From positions 3,100,001 through 3,164,000 of the forward strand of contig NZ_CP034145.1 of assembly GCF_003856835.1 (NCBI RefSeq): 64,000 nucleotides of DNA. Direction: 5' to 3'. Both the position numbers and the translations under genes were made by a program. This DNA comes from Haloplanus aerogenes (lineage in GTDB: Archaea; Halobacteriota; Halobacteria; Halobacteriales; Haloferacaceae). The notes under the pieces are model-generated. The model saw nothing but the letters and a program-made list of their open reading frames with translations, was not told the origin of the DNA and made no database searches. Below, piece after piece: positions 48,062 to 54,154 of this stretch. Within the stretch, counting starts at the first letter, position 1. Each line of letters begins with the position of its first letter.

Positions 48062-48337
48062 TTACCCGCCGCTCACCGGCGGGAACAGCGCGAGTTCGTC
48101 GCCACGCTCCAGTTCCGTCTCCAGTCCGTCGCCCGCGTGGACGTTCTCGCCGTTCCGGAGGACGTTGATGTGGTCGGCCACCGTACCCGAGTCGTCGAGG
48201 ACGCGCTCCCGGAGCGCGGGGCGGGTGTCGAGCAGTTCGTCGAGTGCGTCGCCGACCGTCGCGCCGGGGGCCACGTCGACACGGATCTCCCGGTCGCCCG
48301 CCACTTCCGCGAGGTCCGCGAACAACTTCCACTGCAT
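48062..48337 (-). CDS. samp1: Ubiquitin-like small archaeal modifier protein (SAMP1-type, MoaD fold)
   Basis: A 91-residue beta-grasp protein ending in the diglycine VSGG needed for activation by the UbaA E1 enzyme. MQWKLFADLAEVAGDREIRV, DHINVLRNGENV and DELALFPPVSGG closely resemble haloarchaeal SAMP1, which serves both in protein tagging and in molybdopterin sulfur transfer. The start at 48337 (MQWKLF) is chosen by that match; in-frame codons upstream are not typical. It faces the Rieske gene with a 2-nt gap. Confidence 0.92.
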   Translation of the reverse strand: MQWKLFADLAEVAGDREIRVDVAPGATVGDALDELLDTRPALRERVLDDSGTVADHINVLRNGENVHAGDGLETELERGDELALFPPVSGG

Positions 48338-48375
48338 GAGTACGTGTCGCGCCCCGTCGGTCAAAGGAGTTGCGT

Positions 48376-49533
48376 CTACGCCTCCGGCGCCCGGCTTCGA
48401 GCGTCGAGCCGTCGGTACGTCTCGGGACGGCTGACGACGTACACCGCGTCGCCGGGCGCGAGCGTCCGATCGTCGGGCAGGTCGTCGACGGTCCCGTCCT
48501 CGCTCTGGACCGCCACGACCGTCGCATCGAGACTCTCGACAGCCACGCCCACGAGGTCGCTCCCCGCAGCAACGTTGACGACGTACATGGTCTCTTCCGC
48601 CGCTCGGAGGAGCGACGCGAACTCGCGTTCGGCCTGCGGTTCAGCGGGGAGAGTAACCAGCCGATACGTCTCGTCGGCGTCGAGGTGGGTCGCCTCCTCC
48701 CCGTCGACGGCGAGCGTCGCCACGTCGTCGACGTGTGCCCGGAGTTCGCCAGTCAGGAGGCGTTCAGCCGCCGGCTCCGTCCGCCACACCTGCACCCGAT
48801 CACCGGGACTGGCGGCGTGGGCGGGATCGGCCCGGACCGCGACGGCGACGGTCCCCGGTGCGAGCGTCGGGCCGATCCCGGTCGCGCGACTCCCCAGTGC
48901 GAGATACTCGATCGTACCGTCGTCGGTCAGTTCCACGTCGACGTGACCCACATCGTAGTCGTCCTGCAGACGGGTGACGAACCGGTTCTCTAACTCCGAG
49001 ACGGACAGTCGTCGGGGGAAGATCAGCGTCTTGCCCGCGAGCGTCTCCTTCGTCGCCGGACTCACCGGATCGTACCCCTCTATGTCATCGATGTCGTCGG
49101 CGTCCTCGGGGAGGGTCACGTCGGTGATGCGGCCGACCGAGCGGACGATCCGACTCACCTCCACGTCGAGTTCGCGCGCGCCCGCGAAGGCGAACACGTC
49201 GGTCGCGACGCGGTCACCGACGAGGCGGCCGACGGGCGCACTGATCGCGCCGACACCCAGCGCGAGGACGTTGAACACGATCCGTTCGACCGAGAAGATG
49301 CTCGTCTGGCCGCTGAGCAGGTCGGTGAACACCCCGACCGTGTTGAGCGCCAGCGCGACCACCGAGAGGCCGAGCAGGATCGACAGCCACAGCGGCAGGC
49401 GGAGTTTGGTGTACCAGCGGTAGACGAGCGCCGCGACGGCACTGACGAGGGCGGCCCCGACGGCGAAGGCGAGCAGGCGGGCGAGCGTGCGAAGCAGGAA
49501 CGGATCGACCGCGGGCACGGACACTTGCATCAC
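48376..49533 (-). CDS. Membrane protein with C-terminal TrkA-C-like domain (paralogue A)
   Basis: A 385-residue protein with three hydrophobic helices in the first 110 residues (LAFAVGAALVSAVAALVYRW; LSILLGLSVVALALNTVGVF; VFNVLALGVGAISAPVGRLV) and a large soluble part. A segment IDDIEGYDPVSP precedes FPRRLSVSELENRFVTRLQD. The C-terminus (YVVNVAAGSDLVGVAVESLD; RTLAPGDAVYVVS) looks like a TrkA-C/RCK_C ligand domain. It shares the same order of parts with its neighbour, which it overlaps by 4 nt. There is no NAD-binding TrkA-N. Probably senses ions or nucleotides to control a channel. Confidence 0.78.
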   Translation of the reverse strand: MMQVSVPAVDPFLLRTLARLLAFAVGAALVSAVAALVYRWYTKLRLPLWLSILLGLSVVALALNTVGVFTDLLSGQTSIFSVERIVFNVLALGVGAISAPVGRLVGDRVATDVFAFAGARELDVEVSRIVRSVGRITDVTLPEDADDIDDIEGYDPVSPATKETLAGKTLIFPRRLSVSELENRFVTRLQDDYDVGHVDVELTDDGTIEYLALGSRATGIGPTLAPGTVAVAVRADPAHAASPGDRVQVWRTEPAAERLLTGELRAHVDDVATLAVDGEEATHLDADETYRLVTLPAEPQAEREFASLLRAAEETMYVVNVAAGSDLVGVAVESLDATVVAVQSEDGTVDDLPDDRTLAPGDAVYVVSRPETYRRLDARSRAPEA

Positions 49534-50762
49534 GCGACCGCCTCCCGGAACGCCGAGACGGCGTCGTACGCCCCGACGACGAACAGGTCGTCACCCACGG
49601 CGAGCGCCTGCGAGCCGCGGGGCGCGAACTGCCAGCGCCCCTCGTGGCGGACGGCGAGGACCGTCACGCCGTGGGCGTCCCGCAGGTCGGCGTTACCGAT
49701 GGTCGTGCCCGCGACGGGCGCACCCTCCCGGATCGTCACTTTCCGGATCCGGTTGCCCGCCCGCCGGAGGAGCGTCAGGAGTTCGTACTCCCGGCGCGTC
49801 CCCCGGGAGAGGACGGTGAGGCGGTCGACGGCCGACCCGAGCAGCGAGGACGCCTGCCCGGCGTCGACGGCGACGGTCAGGCGGCCGTCGCCACCGTCCG
49901 CGACGGGGAGCGACGGGGTGGCAGTGGGGTCGGGGACAGGATCGGTCCCGCCGTCGGTGGCGCTGGTGTCGGCCGTCCGCGCGGCGTCGCGCGCGCTGTC
50001 GCTCCGGAGGCTGACGACGGTCCCACGGTAGGTTCGGTCGGGGGCCGTGAGTGCCACCTCGTCGCCGCGAGCGGTACCCGTCGGCAGGAGCCCCCGGACC
50101 GAGACGCCGCGCTTGCCCGGCGGGATGCGCTTGGAGAGGCCGCCGAGGGGCGGCGCGGCGTTCACCGTCGCTCGGGCGCGTTCGTCGAGCGTCACCGCCA
50201 CGTCCGCGAGGTCGAACTCGGTGCGGAGGCGGTCGGCCACCCGCGACTCCAGTTCGACCACCGGCACGTCGGCGGGGAAGGTGGCGGTCCACTCCCGAAT
50301 CTCCCGGCGGAGGTCCGCGGGCACGGACGGATACCCCTCCATGTCGCCCACGTCGCCGGAGACGCGCACGGCGACCTGCCCGCGGCCGCCGACGAGTTGG
50401 ATCACGTCCGTCGAGAGGGTTCGGTCGGTGAGTTTGCGCAGCGACAGTTTCCGGGGGAACTCCGCCCCCATCTTGTCGCCGGCACTGTGCGCGTACAGCG
50501 AGAGCATCAACACGACGATGACTGCCACGGTCAGGCGGACCTGATTCGCCGACTGGGTGAAGGTCGGATCGTTCAGCGCCATCAGGCCACCGTTGACGCC
50601 GGCGATAGCGACGGAGAGGACGATGACACCGAACGCAGGGACGGTGACGCCGGTGATGTACTTGAACGTGAAGCCGAACGCCCACGACACCAGCGCCGGA
50701 ATAATGCCCGTCAGGATGCCGAGATAGAGGCCAAAGAGGACTTCGACCGGAAAGGAGGCCAT
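49530..50762 (-). CDS. Membrane protein with C-terminal TrkA-C-like domain (paralogue B)
   Basis: A 410-residue protein with about three N-terminal helices (YLGILTGIIPALVSWAFG; FGVIVLSVAIAGVNGGLMAL; VRLTVAVIVVLMLSLYAHS). The soluble part has DMEGYPSVPADL and FPADVPVVELESRVADRL, matching the corresponding segments of paralogue A. The C-terminal TrkA-C-like module has KVTIREGAPVAGTTIGN and ALAVGDDLFVVG. No Rossmann motif. Its start lies 87 nt from the divergent Kch-type channel, suggesting joint control. A and B may form a heteromeric complex. Confidence 0.8.
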   Translation of the reverse strand: MASFPVEVLFGLYLGILTGIIPALVSWAFGFTFKYITGVTVPAFGVIVLSVAIAGVNGGLMALNDPTFTQSANQVRLTVAVIVVLMLSLYAHSAGDKMGAEFPRKLSLRKLTDRTLSTDVIQLVGGRGQVAVRVSGDVGDMEGYPSVPADLRREIREWTATFPADVPVVELESRVADRLRTEFDLADVAVTLDERARATVNAAPPLGGLSKRIPPGKRGVSVRGLLPTGTARGDEVALTAPDRTYRGTVVSLRSDSARDAARTADTSATDGGTDPVPDPTATPSLPVADGGDGRLTVAVDAGQASSLLGSAVDRLTVLSRGTRREYELLTLLRRAGNRIRKVTIREGAPVAGTTIGNADLRDAHGVTVLAVRHEGRWQFAPRGSQALAVGDDLFVVGAYDAVSAFREAVA

Positions 50763-50818
50763 AGTCGCGTCTCGGCGCCGAGGCGTAAACCGCTAACGGG
50801 CCGGGCGGGCGACGAGCC

Positions 50819-50827
50819 CTTTATCAA
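50819..50827 (+). promoter_or_regulatory. TATA box of the Kch-type channel gene
   Basis: CTTTATCAA is centred 27 nt before the ATG at 50850, giving a leaderless transcript. The opposite side of this 87-nt gap must hold the promoter of the TrkA-C operon. Confidence 0.55.
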
Positions 50828-50849
50828 TCCCGTGCCCGAGAGCGTAGGC

Positions 50850-52007
50850 ATGGCTGCGAGTCGGGGTGATCGGTTTCTCGGTGTGCGGGCCGCAGTAGGC
50901 CTGACGCTCCTCGCCGGCGCACTCTCGATGGTGACGGGCATCGTCCACATGGGGTCGCCGACGGGGCGACCGCTCGTCCCCTTCGTCCCCCCGGTAGCCC
51001 GCGCCACCGCCGGCTTCACCGGCACGCTCACCGGCTTTCTGCTGCTCGGGAGCGCGCTCGGTCTCCGACGAGGCCTTCGCGCCGCGTGGTACTCGACCAT
51101 CTGCCTGCTCGTCGTCTCCGCCGGACAGGGGCTGGTGCAGGCGAGCGAAACGTCGATTCCGCTGGTGGTCCTCTCCGTCCTCGCGCTGCCCGCCGTCGCG
51201 CTCAACCGCCGTCGGTTCGACCGCTCGGTCGACTTCTCGGCCACGCAACTGGCCGCCCTCCTCGCTCTCGGCGGCTCGCAGGTGTACATCACGACGGGCG
51301 CGTACGCCCTCCGCGAGGAGTTCGGCGGGATCAACACGGTGGTCGACGCCGTCTACTTCGCCATCGTCACCTCCAGCACCGTCGGCTACGGTGACATCAC
51401 GCCCCAGACGGCAGTGGCTCGGCTGTTCGGTATCTCGGCGCTCGTCGTCGGGACGGCGAGTTTCGCCATCGCCCTCGGTGTCCTGCTGACGCCCGCCATC
51501 GAAGCCCGACTCGTCAAGGCACTCGGAAAGATGACCCAATCAGAACTCGACTTGCTCGACGATCACATCCTCGTCCTCGGTCACGGCGACCTGACCGAGG
51601 CGATCATTCAGGAACTGGACGGCAAAGCACCCTTCCTCGTCCTCGTCCCGGACGGTGACGTGGCACGACGGCTGAGCGAACGCGGTATCGACACGCTCAC
51701 CGGCGACACGAGCGACGAGGAGACGCTTCGGCGCGTCCACGTCGAGGAGGCGCGGGCCGTCGTCGCGGCGACGAACGACGACGCGGCGGACGCCCTCGCC
51801 ATCCTGACGGTGCGTGACCTCGCGCCAGACATCCACATCGTCGCGGCGGCGACCCACCGCGAGAACGTGGCCAAACTCCGGCGTGCGGGCGCCGACACGG
51901 TAATCAGCCCCGCGAGCATCGGCGGCCACCTGCTCGTCGAGTCGGCGCTCGGGGGCCGGGACGTCGACACCGAGGCTGTGGCGGATCGCTTGCTCGACGA
52001 AATCTAG
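50850..52007 (+). CDS. Kch-type potassium channel with RCK (TrkA-N) domain
   Basis: A 385-residue ion channel. Several N-terminal helices precede a pore loop with the selectivity filter TVGYGD (177-182), after AIVTSS. The cytosolic RCK domain begins DDHILVLGHGDLTEAI (about 237-252), whose GHGDL loop is the nucleotide-binding turn, and continues with EARAVVAATNDDAADALAI. No TrkA-C domain follows, so the partner proteins at 48376-50762 could supply that part. Stop overlaps the HPP-Usp gene by 4 nt (CTAG). Confidence 0.93.
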   Translation: MAASRGDRFLGVRAAVGLTLLAGALSMVTGIVHMGSPTGRPLVPFVPPVARATAGFTGTLTGFLLLGSALGLRRGLRAAWYSTICLLVVSAGQGLVQASETSIPLVVLSVLALPAVALNRRRFDRSVDFSATQLAALLALGGSQVYITTGAYALREEFGGINTVVDAVYFAIVTSSTVGYGDITPQTAVARLFGISALVVGTASFAIALGVLLTPAIEARLVKALGKMTQSELDLLDDHILVLGHGDLTEAIIQELDGKAPFLVLVPDGDVARRLSERGIDTLTGDTSDEETLRRVHVEEARAVVAATNDDAADALAILTVRDLAPDIHIVAAATHRENVAKLRRAGADTVISPASIGGHLLVESALGGRDVDTEAVADRLLDEI

Positions 52008-53413
52008 GGATGCCCGCGGTCGATCACCGCCACGTCGCAGTCCACGTCGTGTAACCGCTCGAAGGTGGGCGGGGAGACGAACCGCGAGGCACGCGAGCGT
52101 TCGCCGGACGATCCGACGAGCAACAGGTCGTAGGCGTCGGCGTTGGCGCCGATGAAGTCGGTGATCCGGCTCCGGGCCACCCGCGTCTCCACGTCCACGT
52201 CCACCGTCTCCGCGAGGTCGGCCAGCCGTGTCTCCGCCCCCCGGCGCTCCACTTCGGCGTCGATACAGGTGCAGACGCTCAGCGTCCCGCTCCGGCCGGC
52301 CAGTCGCGCGGCGAAATCGAGCATGGCGTGGGCGGTGTCGCCGGGGCGAGCGACGGTCACGAGAATGCGCCGCCAGCGGCGACGGCCCGTCGTCGGCCGG
52401 AAGGCGATGGTGTCGTAGCGGCTGTCGAAGATGCCGCGAACGTACGGCGAGAGCAACCCCTGCTTTTCCTCGTAGGGCGTGACCACGAGGTCGCAGTTCG
52501 TGTTCGCCGCCGTCTCGACGGTCGTCGGTACGGGCGCGCCGCTGGCGACCACCACCTCGCAGGGGACGCCGGCACGAGTTCGGACCGTCTCCGCGGTCGC
52601 CTCCAGACGTTCGGCCGTCTCCGTCGCGACGTCGTCGAGCGCCGGGTCGGCGTTGGCGTCGACGTCGGCATCGGCCGCCGATTCGTCGAGAATCGCCAGC
52701 AACACCACCTTCCCGGCGTCGTGGGCGGCGGCGAGCGTCGCGCCGAACAGCGCCGTCGTCTCCGCGCGGTCGTGATCCCCCCGCATCGGCACGAGGACGT
52801 GATCGTCACCCTGTGCCGTGTCGTAGAGATACTGCGCGCGGCGTTCGTAGAAGCGCGAGCGCCAGAGGGAGAAGACCACGGCGACGAGGGCACCGAAGAC
52901 GGCGACGCTGGTGACGTACGCCTCGGGCGAGGCGTCGTCGGTGACGAGGACGAGCAACGCCGTCGAGAAGGCGGCGGGTTCCTCCACGTCGAGGAGCCAC
53001 GTCGCGGCACCGGTGAGGAAGATGGAGAGCGCGGCGCTCGCGGGCGAGACGGGGGCCGCGGTGGGGAAGAACGGCGCCCACGCGGAGAGGCCGAGCGCCG
53101 CCCACCCACAGCACGCGCCGACGACGAGGCCGACGACGAACTTCCGGGGCGAGGCGTAGCGCCCCTCGGGGTCGGCAAAGAGCGTGTACGCCCCCGACGC
53201 CAGCGGCGGGAAGAGCAGGAAGGAGAGTTCGGTGAGCGCGTTCGAGATGAGCGTCACCAGTCCGATGAGCAGGGGGACCGCCACCAGCACCGTCAGGTGG
53301 AGGAGGTTGCCGGTGTGCTGGAGCCAGCGCCCGAAGGCGGCGAGTTCGCGCCGTTCGAGTCGCCGCATTCGGCGGGCGACGGCGACGAGTCGAGCGATCA
53401 CCCCCTCGAACAT
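52004..53413 (-). CDS. HPP membrane domain fused to two Usp domains
   Basis: A 469-residue fusion. Residues about 35-185 hold four or five helices with HPP-family features (LLFPPLASGAYTLFADPEGR; ASPRKFVVGLVVGACCGW). Two cytosolic universal-stress-protein domains follow: the first starts DDHVLVPMRGDHDR, the second RRILVTVARPGDTAHAMLDF and ends with LLLVGSSGERSRASRF, the typical ATP-site GS..(S) loop. HPP proteins have been linked to nitrite or ion transport in plants and bacteria. Convergent with the Kch gene. Confidence 0.85.
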   Translation of the reverse strand: MFEGVIARLVAVARRMRRLERRELAAFGRWLQHTGNLLHLTVLVAVPLLIGLVTLISNALTELSFLLFPPLASGAYTLFADPEGRYASPRKFVVGLVVGACCGWAALGLSAWAPFFPTAAPVSPASAALSIFLTGAATWLLDVEEPAAFSTALLVLVTDDASPEAYVTSVAVFGALVAVVFSLWRSRFYERRAQYLYDTAQGDDHVLVPMRGDHDRAETTALFGATLAAAHDAGKVVLLAILDESAADADVDANADPALDDVATETAERLEATAETVRTRAGVPCEVVVASGAPVPTTVETAANTNCDLVVTPYEEKQGLLSPYVRGIFDSRYDTIAFRPTTGRRRWRRILVTVARPGDTAHAMLDFAARLAGRSGTLSVCTCIDAEVERRGAETRLADLAETVDVDVETRVARSRITDFIGANADAYDLLLVGSSGERSRASRFVSPPTFERLHDVDCDVAVIDRGHP

Positions 53414-53419
53414 CCTCGC

Positions 53420-54154
53420 TTACCCGAGCGTCGCGGCGGCGTCTAACGCCAGTTCGATCATCCGCTCGACGTTGTTGCGGGCCTTCGGCGGGAGTTCGTC
53501 TGCCGACACGTCGCCGCTCCCTTTCTGCGTGCCCTCGACGAGGTTGCCGTCGACGGTGCAGATGGCACCGGCGCGCAGGCCCTTCCGCCGAGCGAGGGTG
53601 AAGAGCGCGGCCGCCTCCATCTCCACCGCGAGCAAGCCGGCGTCCTCCCAGTCGGCGACGTACTCGTCCGTCTCGGCGTAGAAGGCGTCGTCGGTGACGA
53701 TCGGGCCGACGTGGACGGCCTCGTCGTTCGCCTCGGCGGCGTCGACGAGCGCTCGCAACACGTCGTAGTCGGGGGCAGCGGGATACTCCACCCGCTCGTA
53801 GCGTTTGGTCGTCCCCTCCTCTTTCGCCGCGCCGGTGGCGACGACCATGTCACCGATCTCGATATCCGACTGGAGCGCGCCGGTCGTCCCCGGCCGAATG
53901 ACCGTCTCGACGCCGACGGCCGCGAGTTCCTCCAGCGCGATGGCCGCGGAGGGCGACCCCACGCCGGTCGAACAGACGGTGAGCGGGACGCCGTCGTACT
54001 CGGCGTTGACGAGGTAGTACTCGCGGTTGTGGGCGAGTTCTTCGACGGTGTCACACTGCGCGGCGATCCGTTCGACTCGCCCCGGGTCGCCGGGCAGGAG
54101 CGCCACGTCGTGAACGTCGTCCTCGTCGACCCGCAGGTGTGGCTGGATGGCCAT
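53420..54154 (-). CDS. Nucleoside phosphorylase (uridine phosphorylase family)
   Basis: A 244-residue PNP/UDP-family enzyme that splits nucleosides with phosphate to base plus ribose 1-phosphate. ALLPGDPGRVERI binds phosphate, VCSTGVGSPSAAIALEEL and RPGTTGALQ are active-site loops, and LAVEMEAAALFTLA holds the ribose-binding Met-Glu pair. Uridine is the likeliest substrate, judged by family pattern. DeoC, two kilobases away, would use deoxyribose phosphate from the same kind of salvage. The start is at ATG 54154. Confidence 0.92.
   Translation of the reverse strand: MAIQPHLRVDEDDVHDVALLPGDPGRVERIAAQCDTVEELAHNREYYLVNAEYDGVPLTVCSTGVGSPSAAIALEELAAVGVETVIRPGTTGALQSDIEIGDMVVATGAAKEEGTTKRYERVEYPAAPDYDVLRALVDAAEANDEAVHVGPIVTDDAFYAETDEYVADWEDAGLLAVEMEAAALFTLARRKGLRAGAICTVDGNLVEGTQKGSGDVSADELPPKARNNVERMIELALDAAATLG

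Follow-up and report, generated by a model that had tools for sequence, protein, structure and literature searches.

The subject of this report is a gene cluster of the haloarchaeon Haloplanus aerogenes, located within a stretch of 64,000 nucleotides (nt) of contig NZ_CP034145.1 (positions 3,100,001 to 3,164,000, forward strand), hereafter called the window, in which all positions of the cluster are given. It comprises the gene of a K+ channel of the Kch type and, across a short divergent intergenic region, the overlapping genes of two membrane proteins designated A and B. Our best reading is that A and B constitute a so far undescribed two-subunit membrane RCK_C module regulating Kch, in which A, judged from its sequence, appears to keep a nucleotide-type pocket which B does not. 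The partnership of the pair with Kch is well supported: A and B always occur together and almost always beside one Kch, which suggests that the pair probably controls this channel. To the more specific proposal that A and B form an obligate, membrane-anchored regulatory module for haloarchaeal Kch we assign a probability of roughly 0.6. The layout of the region as given in a preliminary description, with four genes, an 87-nt divergent gap, overlapping A and B genes and a fusion gene converging on Kch, proved correct in every position. The elements at its core are:

B: 48376-49533, minus strand; 385 amino acids (aa), GTG start; three-helix membrane protein with D-x-E-G-Y motif, RcpC-like barrel and RCK_C (Pfam, AlphaFold2 model)
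A: 49530-50762, minus strand; 410 aa; same layout as B, RCK_C at residues 335-410 (Pfam, AlphaFold2 model, family alignment)
Overlap of A stop and B start: 49530-49533, minus strand; 4 nt, GTGA, the GTG of B lying inside the TGA of A; kept in relatives
Divergent intergenic region between A and Kch: 50763-50849; 87 nt, one outward TATA-like element per side
TATA-like element on the Kch side: 50820-50826, TTTATCA; read by eye
TATA-like element on the A side: 50786-50789, TAAA (TTTA on the minus strand); read by eye
Kch: 50850-52007, plus strand; 385 aa; K+ channel with TVGYGD filter and RCK_N (TrkA_N), without TrkA_C

Association of the A-B pair with Kch

When 242 genomes of Halobacteria were searched with A, B and Kch, presence being scored at E < 1e-30, A was detected in 202 genomes and B in the same 202, both being absent from the same 40 (the two sets were compared by hand, membership following by elimination for two genomes in the case of A and for 17 in that of B). 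A profile search reveals two classes of A. Since nine of the 202 genomes hold the divergent class only, the canonical, Kch-type pair is present in 193, and every one of these possesses Kch. The two genes are arranged divergently within 1 kilobase (kb) in 166 of the 193 genomes and at a distance of 1-10 kb in ten more, while in two genomes of one genus (G001 and G007) Kch adjoins A on the same strand in the order K-A-B; altogether, Kch lies within 10 kb of A in 178 genomes. A Kch orthologue is missing from four genomes (G014, G162, G182 and G183), their best matches amounting to E 2.1e-21 to 6.7e-14, with the next weakest match of the set at 1.1e-79. All four are also devoid of A and B (hypergeometric p 0.0015, relatedness ignored). 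Kch does not need A and B, and in the sampled genomes the canonical pair never occurs without Kch.

A second set, which consists of 80 of 201 relatives obtained from named genomes by a pattern-based scan and which in part covers the same species, shows the same arrangement. B is next to A in all 80 loci and Kch lies divergently upstream in 77. The tie of the pair to Kch is borne out by conserved position and co-occurrence. The best match from a named genome belongs to Haloplanus ruber, with 78% identity in A. Outside Halobacteria, no full-length relative turned up in 241 genomes of the phylum, where the matches are confined to the TrkA_C region; for other phyla, covered by the pattern-based scan only, all 80 loci kept of the 201 are haloarchaeal. 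One locus (L056, genome G229) displays two tandem A-B pairs beside a single Kch.

In many families one can also recognise a larger block, moaD-B-A-Kch-HPP-Usp-udp. Its outer members in the window are:

HPP-Usp fusion: 52004-53413, minus strand; 469 aa, TM_HPP and Usp; converges on Kch with a 4-nt overlap
moaD (label): 48062-48364, minus strand; small protein, MoaD-like by appearance without family search; downstream of B, in conserved gene order
udp (label): 53420-54154, minus strand; uridine phosphorylase by appearance without family search; closes the conserved block on its far side

The coupling of A to B is also conserved at the level of the reading frames. With the in-frame start nearest the A stop taken as the start of B, the overlap measures 4 nt in 29 of the first 30 loci and 1 nt in the remaining one; across the 80 named loci it is 4 nt in 76, 1 nt in three and undetermined in one. 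A tree of 62 Kch rows, 16 of them from genomes lacking the canonical pair, requires at least 11 changes between presence and absence of A/B, nine of which are forced by well-supported branches, although gain and loss cannot be distinguished from the tree itself. Loss is indicated by the conserved flanks of A/B-negative loci, in many of which moaD adjoins Kch, together with a remnant in genome G135 (L071, 7709-8029), where residues 1-46 of A are joined to residues 315-382 of B beside an intact Kch. This remnant is a recent loss of the pair by deletion within Haloplanus, the genus of the window itself.

Domain composition of A, B and Kch

Pfam assigns a TrkA_C (RCK_C) domain to A with an E-value of 6.3e-12, above the curated cut-off. 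In B by itself the match is weak (9.2e-4; 19.5 bits compared to a cut-off of 27). We nevertheless consider it real because the domain is found family-wide (E ≤ 0.01 in 39 of 41 B members and in 50 of 51 A members) and because residues 313-385 of the B model superimpose well on the RCK_C domain of MthK (Z 11.9, 72 residues, 1.5 Å, calculated by VIA-align). No match to TrkA_N (RCK_N) was obtained by Pfam for A or B, either as single sequences or as families. Comparison of the A family profile (51 rows) with that of B (41 rows) gives a probability of 99.9 and an E-value of 7.7e-31 over 340 columns; hence A and B are paralogues along most of their length. The preliminary description had portrayed them as paralogous membrane proteins which share the order of their parts and end in a TrkA-C-like domain without any TrkA-N, and this portrayal holds in full.

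The AlphaFold2 models of A and B reach a mean pLDDT of 79.9 and 85.9, respectively, with a low whole-model confidence (pTM 0.31 and 0.38); the folds of the individual domains are credible while their arrangement is not. Both models present three long N-terminal helices (residues 11-42, 48-74 and 82-132 in B) which are followed by an alpha/beta domain, carrying the D-x-E-G-Y motif in both proteins, a barrel (219-299 in B) and RCK_C. The RCK_C domain of A resembles that of 2bko (Z 14.8, 76 residues, 1.2 Å) and of KhtT (7ahm; Z 14.2, 87 residues, 1.8 Å), and KhtT is also the best Foldseek match of B. The barrel of the B model aligns with RcpC (9gzr; Z 8.7, 80 residues, 2.1 Å, 24% identity), but the RcpC domain stays below the curated Pfam cut-off in B (18.5 compared to 28.8 bits) and reaches E ≤ 0.01 in only four of 41 B and five of 51 A members. 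The middle alpha/beta domain has no listed structural match in either protein, which does not imply a new fold.

A possible ligand is suggested by the last 86 residues of A, whose best sequence match in the PDB is, without any gap, the RCK_C domain of BusR (7b5u, E 5e-5). According to PMC8517857, this domain binds cyclic di-AMP (c-di-AMP) in a pocket lined by the side chains of I153, G154, V158, A164, T165, I166 and P181. The equivalent positions of A are I355, G356, L360, V366, T367, V368 and G383, three of the seven being identical; members of the A family carry mostly hydrophobic or small residues in these columns, and they conserve R361 (48/51), W377 (50/51) and P381 (49/51). In B, the profile alignment reveals a gap over the helix which covers the BusR-like pocket. 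The c-di-AMP motif of KtrA is not retained in A as its Asp and Asn positions are not conserved. The genome of the window contains two genes which encode a diadenylate cyclase (DAC) domain, each scoring above the Pfam cut-off (G000:C1:2648863-2649219 and G000:C1:1621714-1621956; L209 and L210). PMC6741144 describes c-di-AMP as essential for Haloferax volcanii when conditions are standard, and links it to the salt response. On this sequence evidence we regard A as a candidate sensor, nothing more.

Kch matches Ion_trans_2 (5.4e-15) and TrkA_N (5.9e-29) and lacks TrkA_C, just as the preliminary description had stated for this TVGYGD channel. The first of these domains, which forms the two-helix pore, and the second, RCK_N, are present in 54 of 54 Kch sequences, with the filter residues T177 to D182 invariant. 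TrkA_C is absent from all 54, including 16 from genomes without a Kch-type A-B pair, and the RCK structure of E. coli Kch (1id1) aligns to residues 238-382 of 385 and thereby to almost the whole tail. Taken together, this indicates that members of the Kch family normally lack TrkA_C, and rules out that the domain was lost only where A and B exist. In comparison with PRK10537, the NCBIfam family of E. coli Kch, the match is extensive (5.2e-59 over 323 residues) and remains below the equivalog cut-off (200.2 compared to 425 bits). A second Kch paralogue of about 38-48% identity to that of the window occurs, not beside A and B, in a minority of the genomes listed (e.g. G013:C2:235822-236922 and G016:C5:74434-75531).

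These findings bear directly on the idea that the RCK_C lobes absent from Kch are provided in trans by A and B, which would complete the gating ring of the channel. The domain contents would suit such an arrangement, Kch possessing RCK_N only and A and B RCK_C without RCK_N, and the rates of B do covary with those of Kch (see below). Yet the 16 Kch sequences from pair-negative genomes are without RCK_C as well, 1id1 leaves hardly any of the tail uncovered, and the divergent A-B pairs treated in the next section keep their RCK_C with no Kch nearby. We therefore deem completion of the ring in trans improbable. The preliminary suggestion that the parts of one gating machine are split between neighbours finds no support on the same grounds; what stands of the undescribed multi-subunit channel regulator proposed there is a two-subunit pair tied to Kch by genome evidence.

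Evolutionary rates, neighbours and divergent pairs

Residual branch-rate correlations were determined on a fixed topology of 39 taxa. Covariation is strong between A and B (r 0.72, p 7e-12) and moderate between B and Kch (r 0.40, p 0.001). Further residual values amount to 0.25 for udp with HPP-Usp (p 0.04), 0.19 for A with HPP-Usp and 0.18 for B with HPP-Usp, and all those of A, B and Kch with udp fall below 0.1. Terminal branches alone give 0.57 for A-B, 0.49 for B-Kch, 0.46 for A-HPP-Usp and 0.08 for A-Kch. The rates back A and B strongly as a unit and the link to Kch only in part; as the controls are few (udp and HPP-Usp), they are no more than suggestive.

The HPP-Usp protein is a genuine fusion, with TM_HPP at 38.2 bits (cut-off 27.2) and Usp at 58 bits (cut-off 24). 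Its gene lies beside Kch in 14 of 17 A/B-positive Kch loci (within L051-L070) and in five of 16 A/B-negative ones, as counted by eye. It is an ordinary, frequent neighbour of Kch which nothing ties to A and B. Hence, the convergent fusion gene noted in the preliminary description is real, but its inclusion as a module with A and B, or as an integral part of an A/B-Kch system, finds no support in the locus counts. Another fusion, of AA_permease and Usp, is encoded near a TrkA_N/TrkA_C protein in L178 (11506-12999).

The divergent class of A belongs to 25 A-B loci (L172-L175, L181 and L184-L203), termed AB2, in which the pair mostly lies beside genes of MinD/DUF7125, ParA and HerA/DUF87 ATPases and of DUF7382 proteins. 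A tree of 75 A sequences, built by a quick method, separates the 24 of the divergent class from the rest by a branch of full SH-aLRT support. ParA genes are present in eight and DUF7382 genes in ten of the 25 loci, the neighbour families having been named by search in some loci and in others by similarity to those proteins. The AB2 loci may possibly encode an undescribed archaeal surface or membrane machine. A relation to Tad pili, which the RcpC-like barrel, the MinD-type ATPases and two neighbours of about 300 aa brought to mind, was discarded because in the two loci scanned both of these neighbours proved to be tetrapyrrole methylases; among the part of the neighbours that was scanned no Tad gene was found. 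CARDB domains occur in large proteins encoded near the AB2 pair in L190 and L194.

Several observations weigh against a pair dedicated to Kch. In addition to the low pTM values and the missing KtrA motif, many genomes keep Kch without A and B, and in 15 of the 193 canonical genomes Kch is more than 10 kb away (on the same contig in 11, on another in four, a division to which draft assemblies set some limit). The rates of A and Kch covary weakly (r 0.21, p 0.08), and the covariation of Kch with HPP-Usp is no weaker (r 0.50, p 2e-5). Kch is found in none of the 25 AB2 loci, and in 20 of them an ATPase gene of the MinD/DUF7125 type (11 loci) or the HerA/DUF87 type (13 loci) lies close by, which argues that being part of a channel is not an intrinsic property of the module. 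Together with the separate branch of AB2, this indicates that linkage to Kch distinguishes a single clade within a larger family of membrane RCK_C proteins. Frequent occurrence without a channel gene nearby, named in the preliminary description as a sign against its proposal, is thus a trait of AB2 and not of the canonical clade.

Two further explanations have to be considered in this light. A, B and Kch might merely belong to one osmotic or K+ regulon without any contact, A and B acting on another target such as a K+/H+ antiporter and sharing with Kch only the divergent promoter. The divergent layout with an apparent promoter on each side would agree with this, as would the 15 distant pairs and the Na_H_Exchanger genes which, each with a gene for a TrkA_C-only protein, are found close to A and B in two genomes (G200, L069, 10290-12116; G033, L178, 7988-9770). 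The genes of the TrkA_C-only proteins concerned, of 159 or 170 aa, adjoin the exchanger genes and make up a KhtTU-like pair with them. Such antiporter neighbours are, however, confined to two of the loci scanned, Kch remains within 10 kb in 178 of 193 genomes, and the canonical pair is never without it; we hold a shared regulon without contact to be rather unlikely, though it deserves to be taken seriously. Alternatively, A-B pairs could serve quite generally as scaffolds in the membrane for machines of the cytoplasm or the cell surface, their position next to Kch being an inherited gene order without function. The ATPase genes of 20 AB2 loci speak for this, and moaD and udp are likewise kept in the block. 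However, the adjacency of A, B and Kch outlasts the change of order to K-A-B in G001 and G007, and the canonical pair, never present without Kch, has been lost repeatedly as a unit, which renders an inherited order devoid of function very doubtful.

Proposed mode of action and relation to known systems

In the regulatory module which we favour, three helices would anchor A and B in the membrane with their domains facing the cytoplasm, and the A-B complex would assemble through the RCK_C ends. It may then act on the RCK_N ring or the pore of Kch and thereby set K+ flux under osmotic change. A would presumably be the sensing subunit, its RCK_C apparently keeping a hydrophobic pocket of the kind in which RCK_C receptors bind c-di-AMP, between the alpha-R1 helices of the dimer, and B, with the pocket helix gone, might play a structural or coupling part. 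One could go further and imagine A and B as membrane-spanning auxiliary subunits devoted to a prokaryotic RCK channel: a heteromeric A-B cage, composed of one nucleotide-sensing and one blind RCK_C, would embrace the Kch pore and enable these salt-in archaea to gate K+ release by c-di-AMP, and in AB2 it would have been redeployed as a link between a membrane sensor and MinD/HerA-type ATPases. This elaboration is speculative and, on balance, unlikely.

A related case among known systems is the regulator KhtT (7agv, 7ahm), which belongs to the K+/H+ antiporter KhtTU. Its gene is separate from that of the transport partner, and the protein has RCK_C without RCK_N and no membrane part. KhtT differs in that its chains comprise about 160 residues and its partner is an antiporter, whereas A and B are paired three-helix membrane proteins with two further domains, encoded beside a K+ channel; correspondingly, the models of A and B contain membrane helices and their immediate neighbours are Kch, HPP-Usp and the moaD-like gene, with no exchanger. 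KtrA and TrkA are, like A and B, products of separate regulatory genes for a K+ pore protein and end in RCK_C, but they possess the RCK_N which A and B lack. BusR shares with A the RCK_C domain and similar pocket positions, yet it is a DNA-binding transcription factor. The Kch of the window and that of E. coli agree in having RCK_N without TrkA_C, the former remaining below the equivalog cut-off, and the barrel of RcpC/CpaB is structurally similar to that of B, with a Pfam match below the curated cut-off.

In the open-access literature, which leaves most subscription journals outside, no paper naming the A-B pair in its title or the start of its abstract was found, and no description of the regulation of haloarchaeal Kch appeared in the literature searched. 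Haloarchaea balance the salt outside with very high internal K+. A conserved pair beside Kch in about 80% of the sampled haloarchaea is a direct candidate for the control of this channel. Its paired design, with an intact and a degenerate RCK_C that are each anchored in the membrane, sets it apart from KtrA, TrkA and KhtT, and A and B may possibly reveal a target of c-di-AMP.

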